Shown here in pieces: positions 38,055 through 60,792 of a stretch of 64,000 nt of DNA (position 1 is its first letter; every line of letters begins with the position of its first letter). The stretch is taken from positions 1 to 64,000 of the forward strand of contig CAJQRC010000018.1 of the NCBI GenBank assembly GCA_905480645.1, given 5' to 3'. The notes below the pieces were generated by a model. That model ran no database searches. It was not told the origin of the DNA and worked only from the letters and a program-made list of their open reading frames with translations. The stretch comes from an uncultured Tateyamaria sp. Lineage in GTDB: Bacteria > Pseudomonadota > Alphaproteobacteria > Rhodobacterales > Rhodobacteraceae. Both the position numbers and the translations under genes were made by a program.

Positions 38055-39755
38055 CTGCGGAGTGTTCTAAAAATATTTTTCAAAGCAAGCGAAACTAAAC
38101 CCTTGGTTGTATTGCTTTGTCTATTCCTAAGTGGCCTTGCTCAAGGTATCGGACTTGCCAGCCTTTTACCAACAGTATCAATGGCCCTTGGAGATACGGC
38201 AGGAGAACAAAGTTCCTCGGTAGTAAAAGTAACGGAATGGCTCGCTTTTTTTGGAATTGAAGCAAATATCGTCACACTAGTGACGCTCGGTGTATCAACT
38301 GTAATACTTAAAAATATTCTTACACTAACAGCCATGACATATGTAGGTTACACAGTTGCAGACATAACCACTAATATTCGAAGCAACCTGGTAAATTCGT
38401 TACTAATGGTGCGATGGGATTTTTTCACTAAACAACCCATCGGAAAAATAACAAATGCATTGAGTGCTGAAGCAACACGCGCCGGGGCGGCGTACCTCTC
38501 AGCAGCAAGGCTATTTGTATATACCATGCAGGCGGTCGTTTACACAGTGGTTGCGTTATTTATCTCATGGCAAGCGGCGATGATGTCTCTTTTTGTAGGT
38601 GCTGTCATAGCATTATCACTGCACTTTTTAATTAAAAGAGCACGTCGAGCTGGTACTCAACAGACAAAACATGCTCGCAATTTCATATCTTACATAAGTG
38701 ATGCTCTTAATAATATAAAACCGCTTAAAGCTATGGCTCGACAAGCAGATTTTGAGAGATTAATGAATGAAAATATTTCAAGATTAAAAAAAGCTCTAAG
38801 AAAACAGGTTATAGCAAAGGAAGCGCTTAAAGCTTCTAATGAAACTCTAGCTGCGATTGTACTTGGGATAGGAATTACAATAGCTATTGTTTATTGGGGT
38901 TTCCCAATTGCAGAGCTTGCGGTGATGGGCCTAGTGCTGACGCAATTAGTTAAAACCTTTAACAAAATGCAAAATGAATATCAAAAAACAGTTATTTCAG
39001 AGAGTGCCTACTTCAGTGCTTTGGAACAAATCCGAGAAACACAAGCACAAATAGAGTCAGATCCTTCGACAAAGAAGCCTATTTTCAAAAAAGAGTTCAG
39101 TTTTGTGGATGTGCATTTTTCTCATGCAGGCAGTCCAATACTCAAAGGAATAACATTAGAATTCCCAAAAAACGCAACCACAGTTCTTACAGGCCCTTCA
39201 GGGTCAGGAAAAACAACAATAACAGATATTTTACTTGGATTTTATTCTCCAGACACTGGCCAAGTCTTAATTGACGACATACCACTTAACAGTTTTTCTC
39301 TACATGACTGGCGAGCATCAATAGGATACGTACCACAGGAACCAATTTTATTTCACGATACAGTTTTCTCAAACATAGCACTGGGTAACAAAACCATAAG
39401 TGAAGCCAATGTAATTGATGCACTTTCTCTTGCTGGTGCATCAAATTTTGTTGCAAACATGCCCCTGGGCCTCGACACTGAAGTAGGAGAAAAGGGGTCA
39501 ATGATTTCCGGTGGTCAACGCCAGCGCATTGCTCTCGCTCGGGCTTTAGTCTGCAAACCTGACATCTTAATCTTGGACGAAGTGACCAGTGCTCTTGATC
39601 CACTTTCAGAACAAGAAATCATCAAAAATATAAAAAATCTTGGTGGTCAGATAACTATAATTGCAATTACTCACCGTCCAGCATTTATTAAAATTGCCGA
39701 CAGAGCTTATCATTTATTAAATGGTCAAATTTCATCTATTGAAAATAATAATTAG
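38055..39755 (+). CDS. MsbA-like ABC exporter (fused TMD-NBD)
   Basis: A half-transporter of about 566 aa. The N-terminal six-helix membrane domain spans about 15-330. The ATPase domain carries Walker A LTGPSGSGKTTITDIL, Q-loop YVPQEP, signature SGGQRQRIALARAL, Walker B ILILDEVTSALD and switch H in AITHRPA. It probably flips a lipid or lipid-linked product at the inner membrane; it opens the sphingolipid locus. Start: the frame is open back to a stop at 38040, with no ATG or GTG. A CTG at 38055 lies 8 bp after AAGAGG and restores the usual amphipathic N-terminus; TTG at 38103 is the conventional alternative. Confidence 0.88.
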   Translation: MRSVLKIFFKASETKPLVVLLCLFLSGLAQGIGLASLLPTVSMALGDTAGEQSSSVVKVTEWLAFFGIEANIVTLVTLGVSTVILKNILTLTAMTYVGYTVADITTNIRSNLVNSLLMVRWDFFTKQPIGKITNALSAEATRAGAAYLSAARLFVYTMQAVVYTVVALFISWQAAMMSLFVGAVIALSLHFLIKRARRAGTQQTKHARNFISYISDALNNIKPLKAMARQADFERLMNENISRLKKALRKQVIAKEALKASNETLAAIVLGIGITIAIVYWGFPIAELAVMGLVLTQLVKTFNKMQNEYQKTVISESAYFSALEQIRETQAQIESDPSTKKPIFKKEFSFVDVHFSHAGSPILKGITLEFPKNATTVLTGPSGSGKTTITDILLGFYSPDTGQVLIDDIPLNSFSLHDWRASIGYVPQEPILFHDTVFSNIALGNKTISEANVIDALSLAGASNFVANMPLGLDTEVGEKGSMISGGQRQRIALARALVCKPDILILDEVTSALDPLSEQEIIKNIKNLGGQITIIAITHRPAFIKIADRAYHLLNGQISSIENNN

Positions 39756-39898
39756 TTCAACAGTTAGCATCAATAAAGAATGACATCAGTAACTGGAGAC
39801 GAATACCAATCTTTATTTCTTTGGGACATACTAATTTCGATTTACAATTAGAAAGTTACTACATGAAAGAATTAGGTATGTAACACTCAAAATACCCA

Positions 39899-40939
39899 CT
39901 ACGACTGATTGACATATTCTTTCGACCAAGAGGTAATATACCCAGTCATTACCTGGCGAGCGTTTTCTATGTCTTTTCGTTCAATGTAGCTGCGTGCAAA
40001 ATTAATGTTACCATCAAAGTGCTTAGCATATTTTTTTGCAATAGTCATTTCTATAAAACGATGGTTTCTAGTTTCAACACGCCTTACTGGAAGATCAGGT
40101 ATATAAACGGGTTTTCCAGTTGCGCACGCTTCGACCACCATCGTAATAGAGTCTGGCGTTACAATAAAAGCTCCAGCACTTTCACAGGCATTCAAAAACC
40201 CTTGCCTATCAGTTGCCTCAATTAACTTAACGTTAGTTGGAGCAAAACGTTTTTTTATGGCGTTCTGTACACTTTTTTTTGTCCTTCTTGAAAAAATTAT
40301 ACTCAGAGAATGTTGAGCCGATATCGTATCAAGTCGATTGAGAAAATCGGAATAATCAGTGATTTCATCGCCATATGTGATATTTAATCCGCCAAGTAAA
40401 ATAACAACCTCGCAACCCTCTTCTTTTGATACCGGTAATGGGTTGCAAATAGGAGAATTCACCCACACCTGTTTAGGGCGCCAAGGATATCGTTTTTCCT
40501 CATCAACACCAAGCTCACGTTCGTGTTGAGGTCTCAACATTAGGTCAGCGCAATTAGTAGTCCACTTCTTCGGCGATCCTATGAAAAGAATGAATACTTC
40601 ATTACCCCGTAGGAATTTTATCAATCGACAAGCTGGTAAAACGGATCTTCCGCTCGCCAAAATCAAATACTCGCCTTTACGGAATGTCCATGCCATTTTT
40701 ATGGCCGGGAATATCCAATATAATTTTTCCAACTCTCTTTGCCACTCCGGCAGTGCTTTATTTAATCCGCGTATTTGCAACACGGCTTCAATTTTGACAC
40801 CAACCAAGTCCGCGACGGCCAAACATTGTGTAACGTGACCATTTTTTTTAGTACTAATTGCGAAAGTGCGAAACGATCCAGCAGTTATTGAACATCCGTT
40901 GGTAGATTTTTGCAAAACATCCAAGCCCTCCAAATTCAA
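39899..40939 (-). CDS. ELM1-family (DUF1022) protein, copy 1
   Basis: A 346-aa member of the 'mitochondrial fission ELM1' family. The bacterial members have no proven function, but the sequence reads like a GT-B glycosyltransferase. The N-terminal half has TKKNGHVTQCLAVADLVGVK and LASGRSVLPACRLIKFL. The C-terminal half has VVILLGGLNITYGDE, LSIIFSRRTKKSVQNAIKKR and VTPDSITMVVEACATGKPVY, a nucleotide-sugar-binding-like element. A second family member is encoded 1.1 kb away on the other strand. It might glycosylate an envelope lipid; this is inference. Confidence 0.78.
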   Translation of the reverse strand: MNLEGLDVLQKSTNGCSITAGSFRTFAISTKKNGHVTQCLAVADLVGVKIEAVLQIRGLNKALPEWQRELEKLYWIFPAIKMAWTFRKGEYLILASGRSVLPACRLIKFLRGNEVFILFIGSPKKWTTNCADLMLRPQHERELGVDEEKRYPWRPKQVWVNSPICNPLPVSKEEGCEVVILLGGLNITYGDEITDYSDFLNRLDTISAQHSLSIIFSRRTKKSVQNAIKKRFAPTNVKLIEATDRQGFLNACESAGAFIVTPDSITMVVEACATGKPVYIPDLPVRRVETRNHRFIEMTIAKKYAKHFDGNINFARSYIERKDIENARQVMTGYITSWSKEYVNQS

Positions 40940-41030
40940 ACTGATTTACAAAAACAATCCAATCGGTGTTGTCTCTACCAGCCTCGTTTATTCATAATAA
41001 AGTTTGTTTAATACAAAGTTACGCAACTAT

Positions 41031-41978
41031 TTAGTTTCTTTTATCAATTTCATTAAGCAGCGTATCTAAATCTGGAACTCTTTCCATAACCTTGTAAGCG
41101 TCACGGCGCACATGGTTTTGCAACATTTCAGAATTAATCTGTTCATCAGAAATAGCGCCTGTAGCCAGACACTCTTTCAATAAACTAAAGAAAAACTGTT
41201 CTTGCTTAGGATCAGGATGTTTCGAATAATAACCCTTTTTCCTGTAGCCACTAATGCCAAGTGCCCTAAAAAGTTTGTTGGGCCGGTTGGTATAATCAAT
41301 CGCAAGGCCCGTTTTCCAAGGCTGGGTTCGCCTTTTGGTATTGTGAATAAGCATAGTGTCTGAAGCCAACCGATCAAAATCGTTCCAAAACGATTCCAGA
41401 TAACCAATAGAGTTATCAGGTTCATTACGTAGTTCAATCCAATCTTCATAATCCAAGTCACCAGAAAACATGGCTTCAAACTGGCTTTTGACGTTCCAAT
41501 GCCGAAGATCAGCACAATTTAGTAGCATTACACTGGAAGCAACATAATTAGCATGCCCTTTATGACCAGGTCGCGGTTTTGCGCAAATACTTTTCCCATC
41601 CATATCCCTATCAAACAGTTCGTTGATATCTCCTACAGCAAACACGTCAGGATCAATTACTATAGCACGGCCTTCATATCCCATCAACTCTGGCGGCATA
41701 AACCGAACAGGAGTAAAAGACTGCAAGTCTGCATTTTTCCAGGTACGCCAATTGCCACCACGTAAAAAATCTTTACCTTCAAAATCCAAAAATAAAGGGA
41801 AGTCTTCTTGTACCGTTATTTGCACATCAAATTCTTTAGGGTTAGCTGAATTGCGCTTGAGCGAATGTTTGCCAACAATAGCACCAACCATTTGCTTTGC
41901 ATTCGTATGTATAAAAACCGTCTTCTTCAATGTTCTGCCCTTACTTCGAATTAACTCTGAACCAAAGGATAAGGTCAC
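41031..41978 (-). CDS. Glycosyltransferase-like protein (GT8-like features)
   Basis: A 315-aa protein I cannot assign firmly. It begins like a GT-A enzyme (KKTVFIHTNAKQMVGAIV), has a DxD-like motif in AIVIDPDVFAVGDINELFDR (about residues 107-126), then SSVMLLNCADLRHW and a late HNTKRRTQPWKTGL segment, all reminiscent of glycosyltransferase family 8. The GTG at 41978 gives 315 aa; a TTG 16 codons later (41930), giving MKKTVFIHTN, may be the true start. It lies between two ELM1-family genes. Confidence 0.68.
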   Translation of the reverse strand: MTLSFGSELIRSKGRTLKKTVFIHTNAKQMVGAIVGKHSLKRNSANPKEFDVQITVQEDFPLFLDFEGKDFLRGGNWRTWKNADLQSFTPVRFMPPELMGYEGRAIVIDPDVFAVGDINELFDRDMDGKSICAKPRPGHKGHANYVASSVMLLNCADLRHWNVKSQFEAMFSGDLDYEDWIELRNEPDNSIGYLESFWNDFDRLASDTMLIHNTKRRTQPWKTGLAIDYTNRPNKLFRALGISGYRKKGYYSKHPDPKQEQFFFSLLKECLATGAISDEQINSEMLQNHVRRDAYKVMERVPDLDTLLNEIDKRN

Positions 41979-42072
41979 TATTAAAACGTTGGGGCTCTAA
42001 ATGCCTTTTGTGTTTCGTTGTGATCAGTTAAACTGAAGGTGCAGTTATTCATGTTATTAGGTGTTCAGATAA

Positions 42073-43203
42073 GTGAAAGCAAGAACAGTTGACCAATCGA
42101 TAGATGTACAGGACGCTATAGATTCGCCGATGGTTTGGGTTTTAGAGGGCCATCGTGCGGGTGATAATCTTCAATTGCAGACATTAGCGGAAGGGATAGG
42201 TTGGCGGTGGACAGTTAAAAAATTAGATTGGCAAAAACAACTGCCAATTTGGACACCTTACTATAGCAGATCAATTAGTTTAAAACATTTAACGCCCGCA
42301 AGCAGGAGTGAATTAACGCCTCCTTGGCCTGACTTGGTTTTATCTATCGGTTGGCGAAGTGTACCGGTTGCGCGCTGGATACAAAAACAATGCACTGCGA
42401 GACTAGTTCATCTTGGGCGACCACGCGCCTCTCTTTCATATTTTAATCTCGTTTTAACTACTCCACAGTATGGCTTACCCTCAGCAAACAATGTGTTGTG
42501 CCTAACCGGACCACTGAATACTCAATCCCCAACGAGGCTGGCTAATAATGCTAATGCTTGGCAAAATCGCTTACTACATCTTCCCCGCCCTTGGACCGCT
42601 GTTTTTGTGGGGGGTAGTACACCATCACTTAAATTTTCAAAGTTTTCCGCCCAAAAATTAGTTAATATATGTAATGATCATAAACTAAAAGTAACAGGCT
42701 CTTTATTGGTTGCAACAAGCCCCAGAACGCCAAGATTTGTCACTGAAATCTTACGCAAATCATTAGATTCACCATCTTTTATATATTTTTGGCATACGGA
42801 TACAGACAATCCTTATGCCGCTTACTTGGCATTGGCAGATGAATTTATAGTTACAAATGACAGTATTTCCATGACACAAGAGGCTGCTTTAACCCAGCGG
42901 CCAGTACAAATTTTTTCGTTAACTCAAAAAAACAAAGCTCTAAGGGAGTTAATTTTAAATGTTGATAAAAAAATACGAAATGGTAACAAAACTCTGTCAC
43001 AGATTTATTTAAACTGTATACGAATGGGGATTATTTTTCCGCCAAAATCCCCAGATAAATACTTCAAAGAGTTGCATAAAAACGGTCAAATTAACTTTTT
43101 AGGTATGCCTTTGCGATATACAAAAAAAGTACCCCTTATTGCAGAAAATGATAATGCAATTCGAGCAGTTTACAAACTATTTGAACAAAAAAGACTTAAT
43201 TAA
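42073..43203 (+). CDS. ELM1-family (DUF1022) protein, copy 2
   Basis: A 376-aa protein of the same family as the minus-strand copy at 39.9 kb. MVWVLEGHRAGDNLQLQTLA is the family's N-terminal signature. LVHLGRPRASLSYFNLVLTT, WTAVFVGGSTPSLKFS and FIVTNDSISMTQEAALTQRP follow; the last is the C-terminal GT-B-like motif. It reads toward the sphingolipid genes and lies 174 bp before the fatty acyl-AMP ligase, so it may be in that transcript. The start is a GTG at 42073. Confidence 0.8.
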   Translation: MKARTVDQSIDVQDAIDSPMVWVLEGHRAGDNLQLQTLAEGIGWRWTVKKLDWQKQLPIWTPYYSRSISLKHLTPASRSELTPPWPDLVLSIGWRSVPVARWIQKQCTARLVHLGRPRASLSYFNLVLTTPQYGLPSANNVLCLTGPLNTQSPTRLANNANAWQNRLLHLPRPWTAVFVGGSTPSLKFSKFSAQKLVNICNDHKLKVTGSLLVATSPRTPRFVTEILRKSLDSPSFIYFWHTDTDNPYAAYLALADEFIVTNDSISMTQEAALTQRPVQIFSLTQKNKALRELILNVDKKIRNGNKTLSQIYLNCIRMGIIFPPKSPDKYFKELHKNGQINFLGMPLRYTKKVPLIAENDNAIRAVYKLFEQKRLN

Positions 43204-43377
43204 TTGACTACAGCGTCAAAGTGAATTTGTGCAATTAAAATAATTAATACTTCAATTTCGCAACAACTTGTGAGTATCCACATCGTCTTATATCTGATGT
43301 TAAGGTTCATAGCTTTAGAAAAACCAATATAAAAGAAGTGGCAAATTGCCTCCATAATCATACAAGGAAAATGCGGC

Positions 43378-45114
43378 TTGATTGAAATCACAATCCCAAC
43401 TCCTACTGAACGTGGAATTCCATTTAAAGCCTCGGGCTTTCGTTCTTTTACTGAAGCTTTAGACTACGCTTCTCAATGCAAAACAGGTATTAATTTTTTC
43501 TCGGGTAGAGGTGTAATAGAGGAGGTTTTACCGTATAAAAAGTTGCGCGCTCAATCAGTTGCGCTTGCAGAACAACTGATATCGATAGGGCTGCAAGCTG
43601 GAGACCGGGTTGCAATTATTGCTGAAAGTGACGGAAATTTTTTGCGTATTTTTGCTGCATGCCAGTATGCTGGTTTAATTCCAATGCCTATGCCTTTACC
43701 TGCTGCTTTTCGAGGGCGTTCAGGATATGTCGACCAAACACGACGTATGATTTTAACTGCCGGTGCAAAAGCTGCTTTCGGTCCTAGTGCAATGCTCAGC
43801 CTTTTGCATGAAGCTGCTGACGTATTGGAACTAGAGTACATTGGGACGGTTGAGGAATTGCCTAAGTTGAAAAATTCAACTTACCTACCAGAACCAACTA
43901 TGAGTGGGCTAGCATATCTCCAGTTTTCATCAGGCAGTACACGCGCTCCAAAAGGCGTGGCAATCACTCATGAAGCTTTTATAGCGAACACAACTGCAAT
44001 ATCTTTATCTGGTATGACAATCAGACAAGATGATCGATGCACCACTTGGCTGCCTTTTTACCATGATCTGGGGTTAGTCGGTTGTCTGTTGACCCCAATT
44101 ATGACACAAATGTCAATCGACGTTATCCCTACTCGCGATTTTGCAAAACGCCCCATGACATGGCTTTCAACCATTAGCAAATATGGTGGAACACTCTCAT
44201 TCGGACCAACTTTCGGTTACGAGCTTTGTGTAAGACGCGCAGAGCGAGCAAAACCACCAATGGATTTAGACTTATCTACATGGCGGGCCGCTGGTATTGG
44301 CGGTGATATGGTCCGTCCGTCAGTGTTAAATAATTTTTCAAAAACATTTTCAGATTTTGGTTTTGAGGCAAACTCCTTCTCTCCCAGCTATGGAATGGCA
44401 GAAGCAACGGTTGCAATAAGTTTTCACGAACCGGGCAGAGGCTTAATTGTTGATACCGTAGATTTAAATATGCTTGAAAATGAAGGACGTGTGATTGAAA
44501 CAAGCGGCGATACAGATAGGATAAGATCTTTCGTTAGATGTGGAAAAATACTCCCTGGACATGAATTAGAAGTCCGTGATCCAAGTGGAAGTGTACTTCC
44601 GGAAAAGCGGGTTGGAACATTTTTCTTACGTGGCCCCAGCACTATGAAAGGTTACGATGGTTTGCCAGAAGAAACAGCAGATGTCTTGGATGAACAAGGA
44701 TGGTTGAATACGGGAGATCTTGGCTACTTATCCGATGGGGAAATTGTAATCACTGGCCGCGCTAAAGACTTAATTATTATGAACGGTCGAAACATCTGGC
44801 CCCAAGATATTGAATGGTCTGTAGAACGAGATATTTCCCTTTGCCGTACAGGGGATGTATCAGCATTTTCTGTACAAAATGGTAACGATGAAACTATCGT
44901 TGTTCTTGTGCAGTGCAGGGCTACAAGCACTGAAGCGCGTGAGTCTTTACGAACGGAAATAGAACGTGTAATTAGCGGCGTCCACGGTTTACAGTGCCAA
45001 GTCGTACTTGTTCCTCACAATAGCCTTCCGCATACTTCCTCGGGAAAGCTTAGTCGTACCAAATCACGAATACAATATCTTGATGGCACTATTGCCGAAT
45101 TATCGGCGCCTTAG
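43378..45114 (+). CDS. Fatty acyl-AMP ligase / acyl-ACP synthetase for sphingolipid synthesis
   Basis: A 578-aa adenylating enzyme of the FAAL type, which activates a fatty acid as acyl-AMP and loads it onto an acyl carrier protein. Motifs: LQFSSGSTRAPKGVAITHEA (P-loop), TTWLPFYHDLGLVGCLLTPI, SPSYGMAEATVAISF, WLNTGDLGYLSDGEIVITGR and NIWPQDIEWSVE, with SSGKLSRTKSR holding the C-terminal lysine. The YHDLGLVG motif is typical of FAALs. The start is TTG at 43378, eight bases after AAGGAA. With the ACP two genes on, it should supply acyl-ACP to serine palmitoyltransferase. Confidence 0.9.
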   Translation: MIEITIPTPTERGIPFKASGFRSFTEALDYASQCKTGINFFSGRGVIEEVLPYKKLRAQSVALAEQLISIGLQAGDRVAIIAESDGNFLRIFAACQYAGLIPMPMPLPAAFRGRSGYVDQTRRMILTAGAKAAFGPSAMLSLLHEAADVLELEYIGTVEELPKLKNSTYLPEPTMSGLAYLQFSSGSTRAPKGVAITHEAFIANTTAISLSGMTIRQDDRCTTWLPFYHDLGLVGCLLTPIMTQMSIDVIPTRDFAKRPMTWLSTISKYGGTLSFGPTFGYELCVRRAERAKPPMDLDLSTWRAAGIGGDMVRPSVLNNFSKTFSDFGFEANSFSPSYGMAEATVAISFHEPGRGLIVDTVDLNMLENEGRVIETSGDTDRIRSFVRCGKILPGHELEVRDPSGSVLPEKRVGTFFLRGPSTMKGYDGLPEETADVLDEQGWLNTGDLGYLSDGEIVITGRAKDLIIMNGRNIWPQDIEWSVERDISLCRTGDVSAFSVQNGNDETIVVLVQCRATSTEARESLRTEIERVISGVHGLQCQVVLVPHNSLPHTSSGKLSRTKSRIQYLDGTIAELSAP

Positions 45115-45141
45115 ACGCAGTGACTTTTTAGGGCAAGAATA

Positions 45142-46095
45142 TTGACACTTAAACAGAAACCTTTGGCAGCTATAACCGGTGGGACTGGATTTGTTGGGCG
45201 CTACATAATATCCGACTTAATTAAATCTGGTTGGAAAATAAGGCTGCTTGTGCGTAGTGAACCAATGCATCCACTTATTCCAGAATTAGATGCTGAAATT
45301 ATTATCAGCGATTTATCTGATCAGAAAGCTTTAGAACAATTTTGTGCGGACGCAGATGCAGTCATACATGTTGGTGGATTAATAAAAGCAAAAAACCGCA
45401 CCGAGTTCTTTGCTGTAAACGAAAAAGGTAGCAAAAACTTAGCAAAAGCAGCCGCAAAAACGGTACCAAAAGCAATCTTTGTTGTAGTTTCTTCAATGGC
45501 AGCCAGAGTGCCAGGCCTATCAGATTACGCTGCGAGCAAACGCGCAGGTGAGGATGCAATAATAAGAAATTTTACTGGACCTGTTACTATTTTACGACCA
45601 TCAGCAGTTTATGGCCGATGGGATAAAGAGACACTGCCATTATTTCAGATGGCTTCAAAAGGGAGGATTTTTATGCCTCGAGATGAAGCAGCCCGTATTT
45701 GTTTAATTAACGTTGCGGACGTTTCAAGCGCAGTGGTTACGTACGCAAAGATAGGAAAAGTTGACGCACTTTATGAATTAAGTGATGAAAATATTTACGG
45801 TTATACTTGGAGTGAAATTGCTTTAACAGTTGGAAAAGCGGTTGGAAAAACCCCCAAAATTACAAGTATTCCAACTGTATTGTCCAAATCTGGAGGTAAT
45901 ACCTTTGCTTATATTTCCCGATTAATGGGGCAGACACCATTCGTCCCAGCAGGGAAAATTGCAGAAATTCTACACGGTCAATGGGGTTCTTCTCCTACAT
46001 TTCAGCCGCAGCTTGAAATTTGGCGCCCACGAATATCTCTGGAAAGTGGTTTTACTCAAACCGCAAAATGGTACGCGTCAAACAAACTTATTTGA
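45142..46095 (+). CDS. cerR: NAD(P)-dependent epimerase/reductase, CerR-like
   Basis: A 317-aa extended SDR: AAITGGTGFVGRYIISDLIK at the N-terminus, SDLSDQKALEQFCADADAVI, and the catalytic tyrosine and lysine in LSDYAASKRAGEDAI. In Caulobacter an SDR between the acyl-ACP synthetase and the ACP reduces the 3-keto group of the sphingoid backbone (CerR). Gene order here is identical (ligase-SDR-ACP-SPT), supporting that role. Start is TTG at 45142. Confidence 0.85.
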   Translation: MTLKQKPLAAITGGTGFVGRYIISDLIKSGWKIRLLVRSEPMHPLIPELDAEIIISDLSDQKALEQFCADADAVIHVGGLIKAKNRTEFFAVNEKGSKNLAKAAAKTVPKAIFVVVSSMAARVPGLSDYAASKRAGEDAIIRNFTGPVTILRPSAVYGRWDKETLPLFQMASKGRIFMPRDEAARICLINVADVSSAVVTYAKIGKVDALYELSDENIYGYTWSEIALTVGKAVGKTPKITSIPTVLSKSGGNTFAYISRLMGQTPFVPAGKIAEILHGQWGSSPTFQPQLEIWRPRISLESGFTQTAKWYASNKLI

Positions 46096-46203
46096 AATAC
46101 TTGGTAGGAAAACGTGACACTTTCTTACAGCCATTCCTCTTTCCAAACAGTGCATATACGCTTGATAAGTGTTATGTAGATAAAAAACAAACGGTGTCAG
46201 TAT

Positions 46204-46455
46204 ATGAACGATGAAGAAGTTGTCGCTATTATCATCAAAGAACTTTTGGTAATAATGCCCAACGCTTCTGACATAGCCTCGGAGACTAATATCGTTCGAG
46301 ACTTAAGCTTGGACTCATTAGCGGTAATGGATTTAGTGATGGCGTTAGAAGACTACTTTGATATTTCGATCCCTTTGGATCGTATTGCCGACACAGAAAC
46401 TGTTTTCCAGCTAGCGGGTGTCGTACAGTCGTTACAAACAGAGGTTAGAGCATAA
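46204..46455 (+). CDS. Dedicated acyl carrier protein
   Basis: An 83-aa acyl carrier protein. The 4'-phosphopantetheine site is Ser38 in LSLDSLAVMDLVMALED. It should carry the long-chain acyl group from the ligase to serine palmitoyltransferase, as the specialised sphingolipid ACP does in Caulobacter. Its stop overlaps the SPT start (TAATG), indicating translational coupling. Confidence 0.92.
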   Translation: MNDEEVVAIIIKELLVIMPNASDIASETNIVRDLSLDSLAVMDLVMALEDYFDISIPLDRIADTETVFQLAGVVQSLQTEVRA

Positions 46456-47672: not shown

Positions 47673-47701
47673 TCACTATAAGAATTTGTTGAAAGCTTTT
47701 A

Positions 47702-50726: not shown

Positions 50727-50775
50727 ATCGGTTATGCTTATATATAAATTTAAACAACCATAAAACGCGAGAGTT

Positions 50776-51687: not shown

Positions 51688-51850
51688 AATTGAAAGGGTA
51701 TCTAGCAAGGCCACACAAAATAATAATATTTGTGGACCTATAAGTCTAATTCTTGAGTGACCATAAACTGTCAGATATTCATATCGTTGGTAAATTTGCC
51801 TTCGACGTAGCTCTTTCCTAACAGCAAAAACAATTTAATTAGGTGATAAT

Positions 51851-52288: not shown

Positions 52289-52309
52289 ATACAGAAATAG
52301 CATGATTTC

Positions 52310-53506: not shown

Positions 53507-54555
53507 TAATTCTAATTAGTTACTTTGGACATGTACTGGGGACACGCATTTTGTCAGTTTTGCTTGCCTTTGTCGCACTTCTAGTACTGATGGATTTAAT
53601 CGATAATATTGAAGATATTCTTGAGCGTCGTGGTAATGTTGCAGATGTAATTCTGTTCGCCACTTATCGAATACCAACAATAGTTGAACGCTTGATCCCC
53701 CTGTCGGTACTCATTGGGAGCACCATGGGCATACTTGCTTTAGCTACACATAGCGAATTAATTATTTTGCGAGCTACAGGAATGTCTGCAATTAAAGTTG
53801 TCACATTAATGGCCCCAATCTGCTTGTTAATAATTTCAATCCATTTTTTTCTTGCCGATCGAATAGCACCCTATTCACAGCAGGCGTTTATAGACTGGTG
53901 GGAACCTCTTTTGAACCGTGGCGGCATACAATGGTTAAGAAGTGACGGTAGTCTGGTGCGGATTAGTGAAGTGTCACAAGATGGACGAACATTACTTGGA
54001 CTTAGTTTTTTTGAACGTGATGAGAGTGGACGTCTACTTGGCAGAATAACGGCAGCGGCAGCCGAGTTTAAAGGAGGTAATTGGCAACTCTATGACACTA
54101 AAGAAACAGTTCTCTCCAAAACTGGTCCAGAAATCATTCAAATGCCGACTAAAGCATGGCTCAATGGGCCAGACCCACAAATAATTCTAAATCTAATTGC
54201 GAGACCCGAACAACTGTCAAAGAATACCCTAGGTCAAATTCTTTCTGTTGCTTGGAGTTCAACGGCTGATCCTTCTGTATACAGCACTGAACTTATACGT
54301 CGTTCCGTAGGGCCTTTAACATCTCTAGTTATGATGCTCATTGCTGCATCTACTATTCGTGGTCAAAATAGATCAGGAGGACCACAACTTGGGGCTGCAG
54401 TAGCCCTTGGACTTGGGTTGACCTTTCTAGTTGTGGACGGCATGTTCTCAGCTCTTGGTAAGGCAGCGGTTCTTACTCCTTTTGTAGCGGCTTGGACCCC
54501 TCTTGCTGTATTTGTGGGGTTATCAACCTTCTTTCTTTTTCGTTTCGAAAAATGA
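53503..54555 (+). CDS. lptG: LptG-family permease
   Basis: A 350-aa partner of LptF with the same 3+3 helix plan: YFGHVLGTRILSVLLAFVAL, PTIVERLIPLSVLIGSTMGI, HSELIILRATGMSAIKVVTL, and a periplasmic domain with GGIQWLRSDGSLVRISEVS. The GTG start at 53503 overlaps the lptF stop (GTGA), indicating coupling. It would form half of the Lpt transmembrane core. The next gene, a CDP-alcohol phosphotransferase, follows after 12 bp. No lptB, lptC or lptA is in the window. Confidence 0.9.
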   Translation: MIILISYFGHVLGTRILSVLLAFVALLVLMDLIDNIEDILERRGNVADVILFATYRIPTIVERLIPLSVLIGSTMGILALATHSELIILRATGMSAIKVVTLMAPICLLIISIHFFLADRIAPYSQQAFIDWWEPLLNRGGIQWLRSDGSLVRISEVSQDGRTLLGLSFFERDESGRLLGRITAAAAEFKGGNWQLYDTKETVLSKTGPEIIQMPTKAWLNGPDPQIILNLIARPEQLSKNTLGQILSVAWSSTADPSVYSTELIRRSVGPLTSLVMMLIAASTIRGQNRSGGPQLGAAVALGLGLTFLVVDGMFSALGKAAVLTPFVAAWTPLAVFVGLSTFFLFRFEK

Positions 54556-54567
54556 TTAGGACATACA

Positions 54568-55773
54568 ATGCATATTTGGATTGATGCAAAACCGGCAGAA
54601 CACCCATTGCATCTTTTCGGTCTTACCGGCCTAGAGCGAATTCTGCGTTCAATCACTAAAACCTGTGACAATTCCACTGTAGTTGTCGTGTCCGGATTGA
54701 TTACAGTGGAAACAGATACCAGATACAGTTTAGTAGATGATACTGGAACAGCAATTGAGCGGTTATCTGCTTATATTACAAGAGTAGATGGACCAGTTTT
54801 GGCTTTAGAAGTCAGCACGATACTCGATGCTCGCCTAATACCTCAACTCATGCAAAATTCTTATCCTTCATGTTTTATGGGTAATGCAGACAACACTGAT
54901 AGTGCTATCTTGTGCTTAACTCCATCGACACTACCACCTACAAATGCTGTTTCTTTGTATGATGCAGCAAAATTAATGCTGCAAAATGCCACTATTAAGG
55001 AAGTTAAAGCCAATCAGTTATCCGATTTTGTCGGAAATTTGAGGCGCAATGTCCCCTTCACTCTTGAGCGGGTTTTTAATGAACAACAAAGTACTGATCT
55101 AGAGAAACGGCTTTTTCAGCTAAGTTATAAAGGCTCTACAGATTTTATGACGAAGTGGGTCTATCCCCCGATTGTTTGGAAATTAACGCGCCTGTGTATT
55201 AAATGGAATTTAACTCCAAATATAGTCACAGTTTTTAGTATTTTATTAACAATTATAGCTATTCCACTCTTTTTCTATGGCTATTGGATTTTAGGTTTTG
55301 CTGCTGCTTTTAGTATGACAATTTTAGACAGTGTTGATGGTAAACTAGCACGTCTAACATTAACAGATTCACCGGTTGGCAACTTCCTTGATCACGGCTT
55401 AGACATTATACACCCACCTTTTTGGTATTGGGCTTGGGCTGCAGGCCTTGTAGCAGATGGCTCTACGACTTCAGTATACATCGCGGCAACGTGGCTTATA
55501 TTTTTTTATATTGCTGACCGGCTTACATTAATGGTAGCCAAAACGCGTTTCAAACGTGGTCTGCACGCAGTCACTCCGCTGGACGGCATGGTGCGAACTT
55601 GGATAGCTCGACGCAATGTGAATTTGGTTATATTTACCATTGGCGTCATTTTCGGAATTGGTGCTTATGCATTTTTATTTATAACGATATGGCAGGCCAT
55701 AACATTTATCTGGCATACTTACCGGACTGCTTGGCTATACCCAAAATGGCGTCATAAGCAATACTTTACCTAA
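54568..55773 (+). CDS. CDP-alcohol phosphotransferase with N-terminal domain, paralogue 2
   Basis: A 401-aa paralogue of the enzyme at 49.6 kb. The N-terminal part (about 1-180) begins MHIWIDAKPAEHPLHLFGLT and has GLERILRSI, like a degenerate nucleotidyltransferase. The C-terminal membrane part has the full CDP-OH-P signature DSVDGKLARLTLTDSPVGNF, LDHGLDIIHPPFWYWAWAAG at about residue 254 on. Shared features with paralogue 1 include YKGxTDF before the helices and WIARRNVNLVIF near the end. It is 12 bp after lptG, so in the same transcript. Headgroup alcohol unknown. Confidence 0.86.
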   Translation: MHIWIDAKPAEHPLHLFGLTGLERILRSITKTCDNSTVVVVSGLITVETDTRYSLVDDTGTAIERLSAYITRVDGPVLALEVSTILDARLIPQLMQNSYPSCFMGNADNTDSAILCLTPSTLPPTNAVSLYDAAKLMLQNATIKEVKANQLSDFVGNLRRNVPFTLERVFNEQQSTDLEKRLFQLSYKGSTDFMTKWVYPPIVWKLTRLCIKWNLTPNIVTVFSILLTIIAIPLFFYGYWILGFAAAFSMTILDSVDGKLARLTLTDSPVGNFLDHGLDIIHPPFWYWAWAAGLVADGSTTSVYIAATWLIFFYIADRLTLMVAKTRFKRGLHAVTPLDGMVRTWIARRNVNLVIFTIGVIFGIGAYAFLFITIWQAITFIWHTYRTAWLYPKWRHKQYFT

Positions 55774-55910
55774 AAGCGTAAAAAATTAGTAACTTTCATG
55801 AAATACACTGTAACACCTTCGTTTTATGGCATAATATGCGACAATCAGGAAACTAGACATAGGTTTAATGGAAAACTACTATCACACCATTCAAAGTTAA
55901 TAGTGAGTGT

Positions 55911-56672
55911 ATGATCATGTTTATCACAACTTGGAAAGGCCGCAGTTTCGACCTCGGCAAGATGACAATGCGAGATTTAATAAAAGCATATTTTACATTT
56001 TACGCGATACAGACTTATTTAGGGTTGGCCTTTGTATCTTTGATACTCACCCTTATTTTTTCAGTAGGTTGGGTTGGTCCAATTGTGGCGGCTGCAGTCA
56101 TTATATTGCTGTACCCAGTGGTTTGGTACTTATTACACCGCTTTGTATTACACAGCCAATACCTTTACCGATGGAAATCAACCGCCACAATATGGAAACG
56201 TATTCATTTTGATCATCATCAGGACCCTCACAGGTTAGACGTTTTGTTCGGAGCACTGTATACTACGTTGCCTACTATCGTCGTGGTAACCATTCCCATC
56301 GGATGGGGTATTTACGGGCTGTCAGGAGCAACGGCTGCGCTAGCTGCTGGTCTCTTTACCACATGCGTTTACGAGTTTGTCCACTGTATCCAACACTTAA
56401 ACTTTAAACCCGCAAACAAATACCTAAAGCATATGAAAGAACACCACCTGTTACATCATTTTCACCATGAAGATGGAAATTATGGAATTACGAATTTTGC
56501 TGTAGACAGAGCATTGGGTACTTACTACGACAAAGCGAAAGAGCGGCCACGTAGCCCAACAGTTTATAATCTGGGATATGACTCTGATAAAGCTGAGAAA
56601 TACCCATGGGTGGCTGAAGAAACGGGGCATATGCCTAGAGATAGACCACCGTCAGCTCGTCAGCAGGTTTAA
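55911..56672 (+). CDS. Fatty acid hydroxylase-superfamily (di-iron) membrane protein
   Basis: A 253-aa integral membrane di-iron enzyme of the sterol desaturase / fatty acid hydroxylase superfamily. The histidine clusters are clear: LLHRFVLHSQ, RIHFDHHQDPHR, EFVHCIQHLN and KEHHLLHHFHHEDGNYG, with four or more helices around them. In eukaryotes this family hydroxylates sphingolipid fatty acids (FA2H/Scs7) or the long-chain base (Sur2). Placement directly before the ceramide synthase candidate suggests hydroxylation of ceramide. Start ATG at 55911 or 55917. Confidence 0.9.
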   Translation: MIMFITTWKGRSFDLGKMTMRDLIKAYFTFYAIQTYLGLAFVSLILTLIFSVGWVGPIVAAAVIILLYPVVWYLLHRFVLHSQYLYRWKSTATIWKRIHFDHHQDPHRLDVLFGALYTTLPTIVVVTIPIGWGIYGLSGATAALAAGLFTTCVYEFVHCIQHLNFKPANKYLKHMKEHHLLHHFHHEDGNYGITNFAVDRALGTYYDKAKERPRSPTVYNLGYDSDKAEKYPWVAEETGHMPRDRPPSARQQV

Positions 56673-56700
56673 CACTCCAAAGTTTATTGGAATTTATCCC

Positions 56701-57843
56701 ATGAGTGATCACTCAGTTGTTGTTTTTCCAGTCAAGTCACGAGCAGACCTTAAAGATTTTATCAATCTGCCATACCGCCTACATCAGGGTGACCCCAATT
56801 ACATATCGCCTTTGCACACAGAACGGAGAGATTTACTTAATCCCAAAAAAAATCCTTATTTAGAGCGTGCATTAGTTCAACTTTGGCTGGCCAAGCGTCA
56901 TGGAGAAGTTGTTGGTAGAATAAGTACCCAAATTGATCCGTTAGCAATGGAAGTGCGTGGATATAAAGAGGGTCACTTTGGTTTAATAGCGGCGGAAAAT
57001 GACCTTAGTATTTTTGAAGCATTAACTCATACTGCTGAGAATTGGCTGCGTAAGGAAGGAGCAACTACGAATGTTGGTCCGTTTAGTTTGAATATCAACG
57101 AAGAAACCGGCGTTTTGGTAACGGGCCATGAAACCAACCCGATGATGATGATGGGGCATGATTTTGGGTATGTAAGCGAACACCTTAGCGCCCTTAATTA
57201 TGATAAAGGCCGCGATCTCAACGCCTATATCTGGGAAATGGGGGCAGAGATGCCAGCCACCCTAAAGAACTTTGAGGACAGAGTTCCAACAAAAGGCATG
57301 ATAGTACGCTCAATAAATATGAAAAAATATCATGAAGAAGTTCGGATCATTGGTAAAATTTTCAATGATGCCTGGTCCGAAAATTGGGGTTTTGTACCTT
57401 TGGCAGAAAACGAAATTGAACATATGGCAAGTCAGCTAAAACCATTAATTATACCTGACCTAGTCTGGTTTGTAGAAATGAATGGAGAACCTGCAGCGTT
57501 CTTGGTCTGTTTACCAAATCTAAATGAAGCGATTGTTGATTTAAAAGGCAAAATTTTACCATTTGGTTGGTCCAAGATTTTATGGCGACTTAAAGTAAAA
57601 GGACTTAAATCAGCCAGAGTGCCTCTGCTTGGTGTGCGCAAAAAATATCTCAACGGTATGCTAGGGCCTTTCATGGTTGGCAGCATAATGAATAAAATGT
57701 TTTATGAGATCAAAAAACGCAATATTGAAAAACTTGAGATGTCTTGGGTGCTCGAAGATAATGTTCCCATGAACCAACTCGCTAAACGTATGGGGGGGCG
57801 CCATTATAAAACTTATCGCGTTTTTCAAAAATCACTGCGTTGA
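56701..57843 (+). CDS. GNAT-type ceramide synthase candidate (bCerS-like N-acyltransferase)
   Basis: A 380-aa protein from the ATG at 56701 (GGAA upstream); earlier in-frame codons overlap the hydroxylase gene and look non-coding. Features: VKSRADLKDFINLPYRLHQG, SPLHTERRDLLNPKKNPYLE, LAKRHGEVVGRISTQIDPLA and a C-terminal GNAT-like region ending AKRMGGRHYKTYRVFQKSLR. This matches the YghO/N-acetyltransferase-like family that includes Caulobacter bCerS, which N-acylates the sphingoid amine. All other ceramide genes are in the window, so this completes the pathway. Stop overlaps the next gene by 4 bp. Confidence 0.85.
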   Translation: MSDHSVVVFPVKSRADLKDFINLPYRLHQGDPNYISPLHTERRDLLNPKKNPYLERALVQLWLAKRHGEVVGRISTQIDPLAMEVRGYKEGHFGLIAAENDLSIFEALTHTAENWLRKEGATTNVGPFSLNINEETGVLVTGHETNPMMMMGHDFGYVSEHLSALNYDKGRDLNAYIWEMGAEMPATLKNFEDRVPTKGMIVRSINMKKYHEEVRIIGKIFNDAWSENWGFVPLAENEIEHMASQLKPLIIPDLVWFVEMNGEPAAFLVCLPNLNEAIVDLKGKILPFGWSKILWRLKVKGLKSARVPLLGVRKKYLNGMLGPFMVGSIMNKMFYEIKKRNIEKLEMSWVLEDNVPMNQLAKRMGGRHYKTYRVFQKSLR

Positions 57844-58634
57844 CCTATTCTGTGCTTATTTTAGCAGGCAATCGCGGTCCCGCTTGCAGTGTAGCCGCTT
57901 TGGATGGCGTATCTCACAAAGCGCTCTTGTCAATAAACGGGGTTACGATGATTGAACGCGTCATTTCAGCGCTAAGGGAAGTTACAATTATAGAGAAGGT
58001 TACAATTGCAATAGAAACCCCAGAAGTTTTGAAGAGTATACCTAACCTTAAACCATTATTTACCAACGGTTATTTAGATACTATTACAGCAATGCCAACA
58101 CCCGCACAAAGCGTACTCAATGGTTTTGAAGCACTTAGTGCCAGTCAAAACGGACCGATCCTAATGACAACAGCAGATAATTGTCTGCTAACATCTGAAA
58201 TTGTCCAACATTTCATAAACTCTCTTAACCAAGACACTGATGTTACGGCAGCAGTTGCTAAGACTGATTTGGTACTAGAAGCTTATCCACAAGCACGACG
58301 CACACGCATGAGCTTTAGCGACGGTAGTCAAGGAGGCTGTAATCTTTTTGCATTCCAAACAGGCAAGGCCCGAAACATAATCAACTTTTGGCGCCTAATA
58401 GAGCAAAATCGTAAAAGCCCTCTCACTATGCTCCGCCAACTTGGATTTTGGGTTGTCCTTCGCTATTTAAGCAATAGTTTATCTATATCACAGGCCGTGA
58501 ATAAACTTGGCCAACGAACGGGAACTAAATTGGCTATTACACAAATGCCATTTCCAGAGGCAGCAATAGATGTTGACACTATCGATGACTATAAGCTTGT
58601 AGAAAATATACTTTCAAAAAGAGAAAATAAATAA
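57840..58634 (+). CDS. NTP transferase-domain protein (MobA-like)
   Basis: A 264-aa Rossmann-like nucleotidyltransferase: VLILAGNRGPACSVAALDGV replaces the usual LAGGxGxR loop, then HKALLSINGVTMIERVISAL and ILMTTADNCLLTSEIV with the metal-binding Asp. The TTG start at 57840 overlaps the previous stop (TTGA). The degenerate first loop leaves substrate binding uncertain. It may activate an alcohol phosphate as a CDP-derivative for the phosphotransferases; this is inference from the operon. Confidence 0.8.
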   Translation: MTYSVLILAGNRGPACSVAALDGVSHKALLSINGVTMIERVISALREVTIIEKVTIAIETPEVLKSIPNLKPLFTNGYLDTITAMPTPAQSVLNGFEALSASQNGPILMTTADNCLLTSEIVQHFINSLNQDTDVTAAVAKTDLVLEAYPQARRTRMSFSDGSQGGCNLFAFQTGKARNIINFWRLIEQNRKSPLTMLRQLGFWVVLRYLSNSLSISQAVNKLGQRTGTKLAITQMPFPEAAIDVDTIDDYKLVENILSKRENK

Positions 58635-58648
58635 ACTCAAGCGAATCT

Positions 58649-59389
58649 TTATCGAGAGTGTCCACCCCATTTATCACTGAGAGCTTTTGCACGACTTAAA
58701 TCATCCATGAAATCAACTTCTTGCCAAGCGAACCCTTCTATAGATGCTATACCAACAACTTTTTTAACAGCAAGTGCGTCAATGGCTCTTAAATACCAAC
58801 TCTTCAAACCATGTTCACCACGGAGCAAATTGACAATAGCTTCTTTGAAGAGTGCGCCACCTTCCCTGTTGAACATTAAAAAACCGATTGACTCAGCATC
58901 AACAACGTCTAACGGCAGCGCCTTTCCAATGCGTATCAAGTGATCGCCTTCAAGACAAACTTTCATGTCATCACCATCGTAGGTATTTTTCCTATCAATC
59001 GTTACAGTGATTGAGTGATTTCTCTGATTGAGAGCTCTAGCCGCAAGTTCTGGCTCAAACAATGTGTCACCATTGATGACTATAAATTCATCAGTCATTT
59101 CTTCGCGTGCGACGTAGCAACTTCCAGCATTGTCTGCTACAGCAAAAAAGGGATTATACAGTGTCCGAACCGTTTGTTTCCCAAAATCTCTCGAAGCAAT
59201 TAAATTTTCCACTTCTTCAGCGTAAAACCCAGTAACAACCGTTACATCGTTAATATCGTTTAAAGCGAGGGCGTTTAACTGCCATTCAAGAATAGAACGA
59301 TCGTTTATAGGAAGCAAACACTTGGGTTGATTTTGGGTTAACGGTAGCAATCTGCTCCCTTGTCCAGCGCTAAGAATAATTGCTTTCAA
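58649..59389 (-). CDS. Sugar/alcohol-phosphate nucleotidyltransferase (LicC-like)
   Basis: A 246-aa nucleotidyltransferase with complete motifs: KAIILSAGQGSRLLPLTQNQ, PKCLLPINDRSILEWQLNAL, EFIVINGDTLFEPEL and GFAWQEVDFMDDLSRAK. It belongs to the phosphocholine cytidylyltransferase / sugar-nucleotidyltransferase group. I use the TTG at 59389, with GGAA 8 bases upstream; a 29-codon longer frame from 59476 lacks family character. It is convergent with the MobA-like gene and could supply a CDP-alcohol for the headgroup step. Confidence 0.87.
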   Translation of the reverse strand: MKAIILSAGQGSRLLPLTQNQPKCLLPINDRSILEWQLNALALNDINDVTVVTGFYAEEVENLIASRDFGKQTVRTLYNPFFAVADNAGSCYVAREEMTDEFIVINGDTLFEPELAARALNQRNHSITVTIDRKNTYDGDDMKVCLEGDHLIRIGKALPLDVVDAESIGFLMFNREGGALFKEAIVNLLRGEHGLKSWYLRAIDALAVKKVVGIASIEGFAWQEVDFMDDLSRAKALSDKWGGHSR

Positions 59390-59913
59390 CGTTTTATTCC
59401 AATGATAATTAATTTGATGTTTGTTTTGCCTACGATCAAAACAAACATCAAGTACCTCATAATCATAGCATTTCACATTGTTACAATTTGCTAAAGCATT
59501 ATCTAGAAAACTTTAGAAGGTATTTAAAAAAGGAAATTGTTAACAAAAGGCAGAGTTATTGGCCAGAAAGTATTGGGAGGGTAATGAAAAATTTTCCTAA
59601 GTGATTAAATATTACAACCTAATTAACAAAGTTGATAGAAATATTTAAGTATTAAAAATTTTACAACTAACTGATTTTTATATAAATTTTTCTCTACTAA
59701 CCAGACAGTCCAAATAACTTTCTCCTGCAAATACCACGGAATAGTGAAATACTATAAATAAAATTATTTCCTGCTTATATTAATAATAGTGTCGCAACAC
59801 ACGGTCTTGATCAGACATAAATTTTTACGTAAACTATGGTATCACGCGAAAAACCTTCAGCCTCTTGTATTTATTAGAGCTCCACCTGGTTGTCAGAGTA
59901 AGAGGCAGAAATA
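59390..59913. other. AT-rich intergenic region
   Basis: About 520 bp between a divergent pair. It is very AT-rich with several A/T runs. Apart from the unsupported in-frame extension of the nucleotidyltransferase gene (to 59476), I see no coding frame, RNA gene or repeat. Promoters for both flanking genes should lie here. Confidence 0.5.
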
Positions 59914-60792
59914 GTGGCAAAAAAAATCCCAAAATACATAAATCCGCTGATATCATTTCTCCACTTTGCCGTTAGAAACCTTCCAACAAAAAAAGCATCT
60001 GCTTTGATGGCGTTTGTTTTGACAAAAGGCAGTAATATTTTTGTTAAATCGCATAATATGCGCACAAACATCCGTTATATTTTTCCTAATATGGAAGAAA
60101 CAAAAGTTGAAGAAATTGCGCAACAAATGCTTGCTAATTTTGGTCGCCACATTGCCGAAATAGCACATATCTCTGATTTCAGATACGATCAAAAAGGCGC
60201 CCGCATTGATACAGTTACGGCAAATGGGTTGGCTTTTGACGGAAAAGGACCAGCGATTTATGTTGGTGCTCATGTTGGAAGTTGGGAATTAAGTGCTTTA
60301 ATTTTTGACAAGCAAAAACAACCAGTAACCGTTATTTACACAGAAAATAAAAGTCCAATAATAGAAAATCTTCTTCAAAAATATCGTAATCAAACAGGAG
60401 CCAAGTATGTTGAAAAACAGAAAGCACTTAAACCCTGTTTTAAAGCTTTAGACCGTGGTGAGTCAGTCGCACTACTCGTAGATCAACGTGTCCGTACCGG
60501 TATTGACGTTGAGTTTTTAGGACACAATGCAACTTTTACACGACTACCCGCCCGATTAGCTATAAACTATGATTGCCCAATAATTCCTTTTGAAGTTATC
60601 AGAGTCGAACCGGGACATTTAAGAGTGAGTTTTCAAGCGCCAATAATGCCTTTGGGTCGAAAAGGAAAAAAAGTGGAATTCGAATTGACCCAAAAGCTAG
60701 CAACCGCGGTAGAACAAGCCATTACTCGTAACATTGAAATGTGGTTTTGTAGTAAATTGCGGTGGAAAGGTGTAGACAGGAAAAAATCATGA
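59914..60792 (+). CDS. LpxL/HtrB-type lysophospholipid acyltransferase
   Basis: A 292-aa acyltransferase of the lipid A late-acyltransferase family. The catalytic HX4E motif is in YVGAHVGSWELSALIF (about residue 124), and LLVDQRVRTGIDVEFLGHNA is the conserved second block. An N-terminal hydrophobic/amphipathic segment anchors it to the inner membrane. It could add a secondary acyl chain to lipid A or, given the neighbours, an O-acyl chain to a sphingolipid. The start is GTG at 59914. It is alone, with 263 bp to the next gene. Confidence 0.87.
   Translation: MAKKIPKYINPLISFLHFAVRNLPTKKASALMAFVLTKGSNIFVKSHNMRTNIRYIFPNMEETKVEEIAQQMLANFGRHIAEIAHISDFRYDQKGARIDTVTANGLAFDGKGPAIYVGAHVGSWELSALIFDKQKQPVTVIYTENKSPIIENLLQKYRNQTGAKYVEKQKALKPCFKALDRGESVALLVDQRVRTGIDVEFLGHNATFTRLPARLAINYDCPIIPFEVIRVEPGHLRVSFQAPIMPLGRKGKKVEFELTQKLATAVEQAITRNIEMWFCSKLRWKGVDRKKS

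Follow-up and report, generated by a model that had tools for sequence, protein, structure and literature searches.

A probable ceramide phosphoglycerate-type synthesis and export locus with a candidate ABC flippase in an uncultured Tateyamaria sp.

The window analysed here, a stretch of 64,000 nucleotides from an uncultured Tateyamaria sp. (positions 1 to 64,000 of contig CAJQRC010000018.1, assembly GCA_905480645.1), carries at 38103-60792 a group of genes that sequence and gene order mark as a variant of a cluster already described, the phosphosphingolipid cluster CC_1168-CC_1152 of Caulobacter. In its core, though not in each single step, we regard it as quite probably a locus for the synthesis and export of a lipid of the ceramide phosphoglycerate type. 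An earlier note on this DNA had listed a fatty acyl-AMP ligase (FAAL), a short-chain dehydrogenase/reductase (SDR), an acyl carrier protein (ACP), a serine palmitoyltransferase (SPT), a hydroxylase, a kinase, transferases, an exporter, LptF/LptG and an LpxL-type acyltransferase, and this inventory was confirmed: all genes named there are intact open reading frames within the above coordinates and match the expected families, with the exception of the ceramide synthase (CerS) candidate, which has no Pfam match. Six genes had been passed over, namely x47, a phosphoesterase gene, a HIT-family gene, two ELM1-family genes and a GT8-like gene. In the following, coordinates refer to the window with the strand given as + or -.

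Correspondence to the Caulobacter cluster

Fourteen genes of the window match a locus of Caulobacter vibrioides DSM 9893 (L096) one to one and in order. In L096, this order is ntp2, ntp1, CerS candidate, lptG2, lptF2, HIT gene, phosphoesterase, cdpA, kinase, x47, spt, acp, cerR and faal, and beyond faal follow a membrane protein without Pfam family, a PF04464-like protein (E 0.014) and an LptC protein (E 1.2e-23). Since L096 reproduces the published map from CC_1152 to CC_1168 (PMC11324152), the CC gene numbers were assigned here by order.

The five ceramide genes of the Caulobacter type (aasR, cerR, acpR, spt and cerS) are present. They code for the FAAL (AasR; 43378-45114, +; NF006624, 769.7 bits, cut-off 600), a CerR-like SDR (45142-46095, +; Pfam Epimerase; 38% identity to the L096 protein at the cerR position), a dedicated ACP (46204-46455, +; assigned by PF00550 and position), the SPT (46455-47672, +; NF047599, 646.5 bits, cut-off 500; 60% to C. 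vibrioides) and the candidate for a bacterial CerS (56701-57843, +), which is assigned only by its CC_1154 position and 48% identity to the C. vibrioides protein there. The latter had been described as a GNAT ceramide synthase candidate. It matches the proteins at the CerS position of other clusters at 40-50% identity, and at 70% in Tateyamaria pelophila, and it is only because of these matches that we keep the ceramide synthase label; the GNAT assignment found no counterpart, as Pfam gives no match in 56701-57843.

Orthologues of the six headgroup genes CC_1161, CC_1160, CC_1159, CC_1158, CC_1153 and CC_1152 lie in the order of L096 at 31-49% identity. In the window, they are x47, the CpgC/CC_1161 orthologue (47702-48619, -); the gene for a CpgB-type ceramide kinase (48616-49563, -; PF00781, E 1.2e-7; C. 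vibrioides orthologue 32% identical and in order); cdpA, the CpgA/CC_1159 orthologue, for a CDP-alcohol phosphotransferase with an N-terminal domain (49560-50693, -; PF01066 and alignment); the gene for a calcineurin-like phosphoesterase (50776-51687, +; PF00149, E 4.4e-13), whose positional counterpart in C. vibrioides is also PF00149 (E 5.6e-14); ntp1, for a MobA-like nucleoside triphosphate (NTP) transferase (57840-58634, +; PF12804); and ntp2, the CpgD/CC_1152 orthologue, for a cytidylyltransferase (58649-59476, -; PF00483) with CTP:phosphocholine cytidylyltransferase 1jyk as best PDB match (E 6.2e-17).

The product of the Caulobacter cpg set is ceramide (di)phosphoglycerate, CPG/CPG2 (PMC11324152, PMC12275187). 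There, CC_1161 and CC_1160 are required for CPG and CC_1159, CC_1153, CC_1152 and partly CC_1158 for CPG2, whereas CPG still forms without CpgA (PMC11324152); the kinase activity is known from the Caulobacter papers, and CpgD is a phosphoglycerate cytidylyltransferase (PMC12275187), structures of which are given in the preprint PMC13228409. As the headgroup genes of the window match this set, a phosphoglycerate-type headgroup is the default expectation, which counters the claim of the earlier note that the headgroup could not be predicted from known systems. The core could instead make a ceramide phospholipid with another headgroup, e.g. phospho-inositol or phospho-glycerol, given that the locus encodes two CDP-alcohol transferases belonging to the inositol-phosphate branch, that both weakly match the archaetidylinositol phosphate synthase model (51.5 and 49.0 bits, cut-off 180) and that the second of them, CdpB, has the inositol enzyme IPCT-DIPPS as its best fold match. 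We consider this unlikely, since the CpgD and CpgA orthologues are 49% and 47% identical to the C. vibrioides proteins, the Caulobacter lipid is a phosphoglycerate, and no inositol-phosphate synthase was detected among the 30 proteins scanned with Pfam.

Conservation of the locus

An alignment of CdpA sequences, headed by a Niveispirillum-like sequence, was scanned against a collection of 84,980 species genomes; the list comprised 594 stretches, at least 525 of which code for a relative. The loci named here are the best 80 of these at least 525 matches, come from alphaproteobacteria, Burkholderiales and gammaproteobacteria according to their record titles and, owing to this choice of best matches, are no random sample. 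Counts refer to the 52 loci with full 10-kb flanks, the other 28 having been dropped for a cut flank. A gene was counted as present when its BLAST score passed a threshold, a procedure that misses divergent copies, and the sample leans towards headgroup genes because it was retrieved via cdpA, which is one of them.

x47, the HIT gene, lptF2, the CerS candidate and ntp1 were each found in 52 of the 52 loci, followed by lptG2 (50), the phosphoesterase gene (48), the kinase gene (45), cerR (44), spt and acp (42 each), ntp2 (41) and faal (39); the more variable genes were elm1b (17), the ABC transporter gene (13), the hydroxylase gene (10), cdpB (8) and the GT8-like gene (7). The comparison thus upholds the view that genes for ceramide synthesis, headgroup addition, hydroxylation and export form one unit. 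Scattered headgroup and export genes next to ceramide genes that stay together, which the earlier note had named as the contrary case, are the opposite of what was found, spt being present in fewer loci than the five constant genes. A loss of SPT from Burkholderiales-type loci was considered and rejected, as an SPT homologue at 45-48% identity was found in 13 of 13 such genomes.

The HIT-family protein at the CC_1157 position (51851-52288, +) is called probably unrelated to sphingolipids in PMC11324152. Its occurrence in every one of the 52 loci is comparative evidence that CC_1157 belongs to the pathway. The family was assigned by profile: at E up to 10, PF01230 matches each of 10 members (best 3.9e-7), with the copy in the window reaching only E 0.11, below the cut-off, and the profile of the gene matches PDB entry 2oik (E 4.5e-8). 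CC_1167 gave no match in the window, and a protein at its position was found in 23 of the 52 loci. In L096 (18500-19627), this protein is weakly similar to CDP-glycerol glycerophosphotransferases (PF04464, E 0.014), and by this similarity it could be an enzyme using CDP-glycerate.

In T. pelophila DSM 17270 (L129/G012), the genes from the ABC transporter to the LpxL-type acyltransferase lie in identical order at 56-86% identity. For 20 genes (acp was left out), pN/pS between the two copies ranged from 0.09 to 0.36, with 0.16 for the ABC transporter, 0.23 for cdpB, 0.12 for the hydroxylase and 0.23 for lpxL; because synonymous sites are saturated, only the direction of these values, i.e. purifying selection, is safe. 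Together with the order of 14 genes shared with C. vibrioides, this shows that the gene order of the locus is not due to chance. Strong cdpA/cdpB matches were found in 2 of 19 genomes of the genus, the window's own and that of T. pelophila, so that the cluster is sporadic within the genus; in a draw of 385 alphaproteobacterial genomes, 24, including the window's own, had a cdpA or cdpB match at E 1e-20.

A candidate flippase and its exchange between lineages

At 38103-39755 (+), the locus encodes an MsbA-like ABC half-transporter (Pfam ABC_tran and ABC_membrane), which we propose, from its sequence relationships, as a sphingolipid flippase playing the role predicted for CC_1166, itself proposed as a potential flippase in Caulobacter (PMC11324152). 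A tblastn search of the window with CC_1166 found nothing significant (best E 0.17), and the protein of this type is MOP-like by inspection, with no Pfam family at E up to 1. Thirteen of the 52 loci carry the ABC type, 29 the CC_1166 type, none both and 10 neither; T. pelophila is counted among the latter, as its ABC gene falls just outside the flank. A naive hypergeometric test, which ignores kinship, yields 1.8e-6 for this exclusion. On a quick tree of cdpA plus x47 (53 rows, with the window and T. pelophila scored as ABC type, and with long branches, two of which, L133 and L138, are joined), the 44 scored rows imply at least 5 changes of flippase type. Orthologues of the ABC protein (399-507 bits) lie inside the clusters of 6 of 6 ABC-type genomes searched, and, leaving aside the copy of T. 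pelophila (928 bits), no other ABC match in the 11 genomes of that search exceeds 187 bits. Among genomes of the CC_1166 type, L096 and L066 had no ABC match at E 1e-45 and L063 had one at 32% identity. Such an exchange of unlike proteins in one setting is the pattern expected if two kinds of flippase served one lipid. Although this does not prove transport, and CC_1166 is itself only a potential flippase, the exchange argues that both proteins flip the lipid. Among the titles and abstract openings listed in searches of a PMC library, none concerned an ABC transporter as flippase of bacterial sphingolipids, an Scs7-like enzyme within sphingolipid clusters or a likeness of CpgC to Tam41.

Between the ABC gene and the FAAL gene lie the genes for two ELM1-family proteins, a (39899-40939, -; PF06258, E 6.6e-34; 64% match in the T. 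pelophila cluster) and b (elm1b; 42073-43203, +; PF06258, E 2.9e-57), and for a GT8-like putative glycosyltransferase (41031-41978, -; PF01501, E 0.016, below cut-off; 82% in T. pelophila). elm1b occurs in 12 of 13 loci of the ABC type versus 1 of 29 of the CC_1166 type. It could be argued that the ABC, ELM1, GT8-like and LpxL-type genes belong to an unrelated neighbouring envelope locus and that the sphingolipid unit covers only 43378-59476: the ABC, elm1b and GT8-like genes are missing from most loci (found in 13, 17 and 7 of 52), lpxL stands alone, about 440 bases from the adjoining gene, and the view of the survey is restricted to the 10-kb flanks. We find this separation improbable in light of the ABC orthologues within the sphingolipid clusters of all six ABC-type genomes, where no comparable paralogue was found, of the strict exclusion between the ABC and CC_1166 types, and of the fact that the ABC, ELM1, GT8-like and LpxL-type genes are kept at the same places in T. 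pelophila.

The CpgC orthologue and a possible CDP-ceramide step

The AlphaFold2 model of the x47 protein has a predicted local distance difference test score (pLDDT) of 84.2 and a predicted template modelling score (pTM) of 0.85. Its top five Foldseek matches are all Tam41 structures (E 2.0e-8 to 1.1e-6), and those that follow are other nucleotidyltransferases. Pfam gave no family for x47, and none of 7 members matched a Tam41 model when E values up to 10 were allowed; the relationship is therefore one of fold likeness, not of family membership. The mechanism of CpgC is called unidentified in print (PMC12275187); CC_1161 has an InterPro domain of CDP-diacylglycerol (CDP-DAG) synthase, and a ceramide activated by a nucleoside diphosphate has already been floated (PMC11324152). 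Taken together, the Tam41-like fold of the model and the known kinase support CDP-ceramide as the natural product of x47, which argues for a CDP-ceramide step and provides a candidate for an open step of the pathway.

A second CDP-alcohol phosphotransferase

cdpB (54568-55773, +; PF01066) encodes a second CDP-alcohol phosphotransferase with an N-terminal nucleotidyltransferase-like domain. Its model (pLDDT 84.6) has IPCT-DIPPS (4mnd, E 4.7e-11) as best Foldseek match and a fold of the IPCT-DIPPS/PIP synthase kind, and the protein is 39% identical to CdpA over the transferase part. In most loci that carry it, cdpB lies between lptG2 and the hydroxylase or CerS gene, and in G111 beside the ABC gene. 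Four genomes of one genus and Panacagrimonas encode two CdpB-type proteins besides CdpA, so that the number of CDP-alcohol transferases per cluster is one in Caulobacter, two in the window and three in these genomes. We read CdpB as an enzyme that would add a further phospho-alcohol unit.

cdpB occurs in 5 of the 13 ABC loci and in none of the 29 loci of the CC_1166 type, but we keep this association only as a hint, as the tree provides just 3 independent pairs on starred branches and a sign test cannot reach significance. Two other roles were considered and rejected. First, CdpB might have represented the missing CPG synthase of Caulobacter, perhaps CC_1385, a mutant of which shows cofitness with CC_1159 (PMC11324152); the sole match of C. 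vibrioides to the CdpB profile at E 1e-10 is, however, CpgA. Second, it might have replaced the ceramide kinase, a BLAST match to which is missing in 7 of the 52 loci, 6 of them carrying cdpB; a kinase profile nevertheless finds a divergent homologue in 12 of 13 genomes without a clear kinase in the locus. In G416, the stretch around the locus does contain this kinase, which BLAST misses because of its divergence and Pfam recognises as DAGK_cat (E 2.7e-9); the lone genome without a homologue, G431, was assembled from a metagenome. The figure of 45 kinase-bearing loci out of 52 is thus too low.

The Scs7-like hydroxylase

At 55911-56672 (+), the window encodes a PF04116 protein with a profile match to Scs7, which we propose as ceramide acyl hydroxylase. 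Compared with the PDB at E up to 1, a profile of the ten cluster-bound PF04116 proteins finds nothing but two yeast Scs7 sequences (best E 4.2e-12). In 2 of the 10 loci carrying the hydroxylase, both from Caulobacter, the gene lies beside the FAAL gene and not in the CerS operon, and a search at E 1e-20 detected no copy in any of the 16 cluster-bearing genomes tested whose loci are without it. In Caulobacter crescentus, hydroxylation is reported to depend on the DesA-family enzyme CC_0202 (PMC11324152); the locus adds a putative ceramide hydroxylase unlike that of Caulobacter. The N-acyl chain is the likely site of the hydroxyl group in the product, the sphingoid base a less likely one.

The LpxL-type acyltransferase and the relation to lipopolysaccharide

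The last gene of the locus (59914-60792, +) encodes an LpxL-family acyltransferase (PF03279, 147.8 bits, cut-off 22.3), for which all 15 NCBIfam models listed stay below their cut-offs; by sequence it is a PF03279 family member, and a role on a lipid A acceptor is putative. Of 20 genomes, T. pelophila alone has an orthologue (66% identity), which occupies the corresponding position; the best of the remaining matches reaches 31%. PF03279-like genes, detected by BLAST and by a profile made from those same sequences, are present in 7 Burkholderiales-type loci (L113, L121, L128, L130, L135, L139 and L140), whose genomes have a divergent SPT (45-48%) and a divergent kinase; the four that match the window lpxL do so at 22-26%. 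The recruitment of PF03279 acyltransferases may have been repeated. Directly after the LpxL-type gene, at 61056-62714, lies a sulfatase-family gene (PehA-like, 283 bits, model cut-off 900).

The earlier note had suggested the lipid as a partner of, or a substitute for, lipopolysaccharide (LPS). The host genome has LpxC (304.7 bits), a second LptF/LptG pair on contig C24 and a second PF03279 gene, and LPS synthesis is therefore probably kept. A replacement of LPS by the sphingolipid, for which one could invoke the LpxL-type acyltransferase, the MsbA-like exporter and the LptF/LptG paralogues of the cluster as well as the finding that CPG2 supports LPS-free Caulobacter (PMC12275187), is very improbable in a genome with LpxC and a separate LptF/LptG pair. 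Of the two suggestions, that of a partner fits better, and that of a substitute was not borne out.

Gene boundaries

The start of cdpA was corrected by inspection and alignment to near 50693, not 50888, and that of the CerS candidate gene to near 56701, not 56578. The upstream part of the longest cdpA reading frame, 50693-50888, resembles the antisense of the start region of the phosphoesterase gene, and its conservation with T. pelophila is consequently no evidence for a longer cdpA. Promoter and terminator scans gave numbers near chance (49 versus a mean of 47.0, and 19 versus 15.0).

Proposed pathway

We propose that the locus directs the formation and export of a hydroxylated and acidic lipid, a phosphosphingolipid of the ceramide phosphoglycerate type. 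FAAL, ACP, SPT, CerS and CerR would generate (dihydro)ceramide, the N-acyl chain of which would be hydroxylated by the Scs7-like enzyme, and the CpgB-type kinase would form ceramide-1-phosphate, which the Tam41-like CpgC orthologue could convert with CTP to CDP-ceramide, while CpgD would supply CDP-glycerate. The CDP-alcohol phosphotransferases would join the phosphoglycerate units, the second adding a unit that Caulobacter lacks. The lipid would then be flipped by the MsbA-like ABC protein and extracted for the outer membrane by LptF2 (52310-53506, +; PF03739, 207.1 bits) and LptG2 (53503-54555, +; PF03739, 187.2 bits; TIGR04408, 241.9 bits, cut-off 240).

Several points weigh against this scheme. 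The lipid is a prediction from genes, and with the six headgroup enzymes only 31-49% identical to those of C. vibrioides, changes of substrate are possible. The family scores of the kinase are weak, and the match of x47 to Tam41 is moderate, with 13-15% identity, a TM-score by query of 0.46-0.55 and a root mean square deviation of 6.1-9.8. If CpgC makes CDP-ceramide, the enzyme joining glycerate has still to be accounted for in Caulobacter, because CPG forms there without CpgA and no cdpB was found in C. vibrioides; by the same token, cdpB is not needed for CPG. Finally, LptC2 (CC_1168) is absent from the cluster by our searches: tblastn with the C. vibrioides protein, run at E up to 1, finds nothing in the window, and the two PF06835 (LptC-family) matches of the host genome sit together on contig C23, outside the window.

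A more far-reaching idea, which we regard as speculative and rather unlikely, is that clusters of the ABC type make a lipid-A-like sphingolipid. In such a lipid, a 2-hydroxylated ceramide would receive a third acyl chain on its hydroxyl from the LpxL-type enzyme and one phospho-alcohol unit beyond CPG2 from CdpB, and a dedicated MsbA-like flippase, repeatedly exchanged with the CC_1166 type, and LptF2/LptG2 would deliver it. How long the headgroup becomes would then depend on how many CDP-alcohol transferases the cluster encodes.

Comparison with known systems

The similarity of the ABC protein to MsbA consists in the half-transporter architecture and 260.3 bits to TIGR02203; unlike MsbA, it stays below the equivalog cut-off of 602 and belongs to a separate orthologue group in sphingolipid clusters. 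With the CDP-DAG synthase Tam41, x47 shares the predicted fold (best E 2.0e-8), but the sequence model is not matched, identity is only 13-15% and the lipid substrate is presumably ceramide-1-phosphate. The hydroxylase resembles yeast Scs7 and FA2H in its catalytic domain (PF04116), including the conserved histidine boxes. A fused cytochrome b5 domain is typical of Scs7/FA2H, whereas the 253-residue protein of the window has one Pfam domain and lacks cytochrome b5.

The cluster of T. pelophila differs in its setting, with 57-58% G+C around the cluster versus 41% in the window and a genome of 5.6 Mb versus 3.07 Mb for the host of the window. This host genome is also small next to the other members of the genus searched (4.1-5.6 Mb), and the window is A+T-rich.

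With the Caulobacter cluster CC_1168-CC_1152, the locus shares the 14 genes from FAAL to CpgD, including the phosphoesterase and HIT genes and the LptF2/LptG2 pair. It differs in having an ABC transporter in place of the CC_1166 type and in the addition of cdpB, the Scs7-like hydroxylase, the ELM1 pair and the GT8-like and LpxL-type genes. The locus thereby offers candidates for the flippase and CpgC steps, which are still open in the field, and the exchanged membrane pump and the added enzymes suggest a more elaborate lipid than that of Caulobacter.

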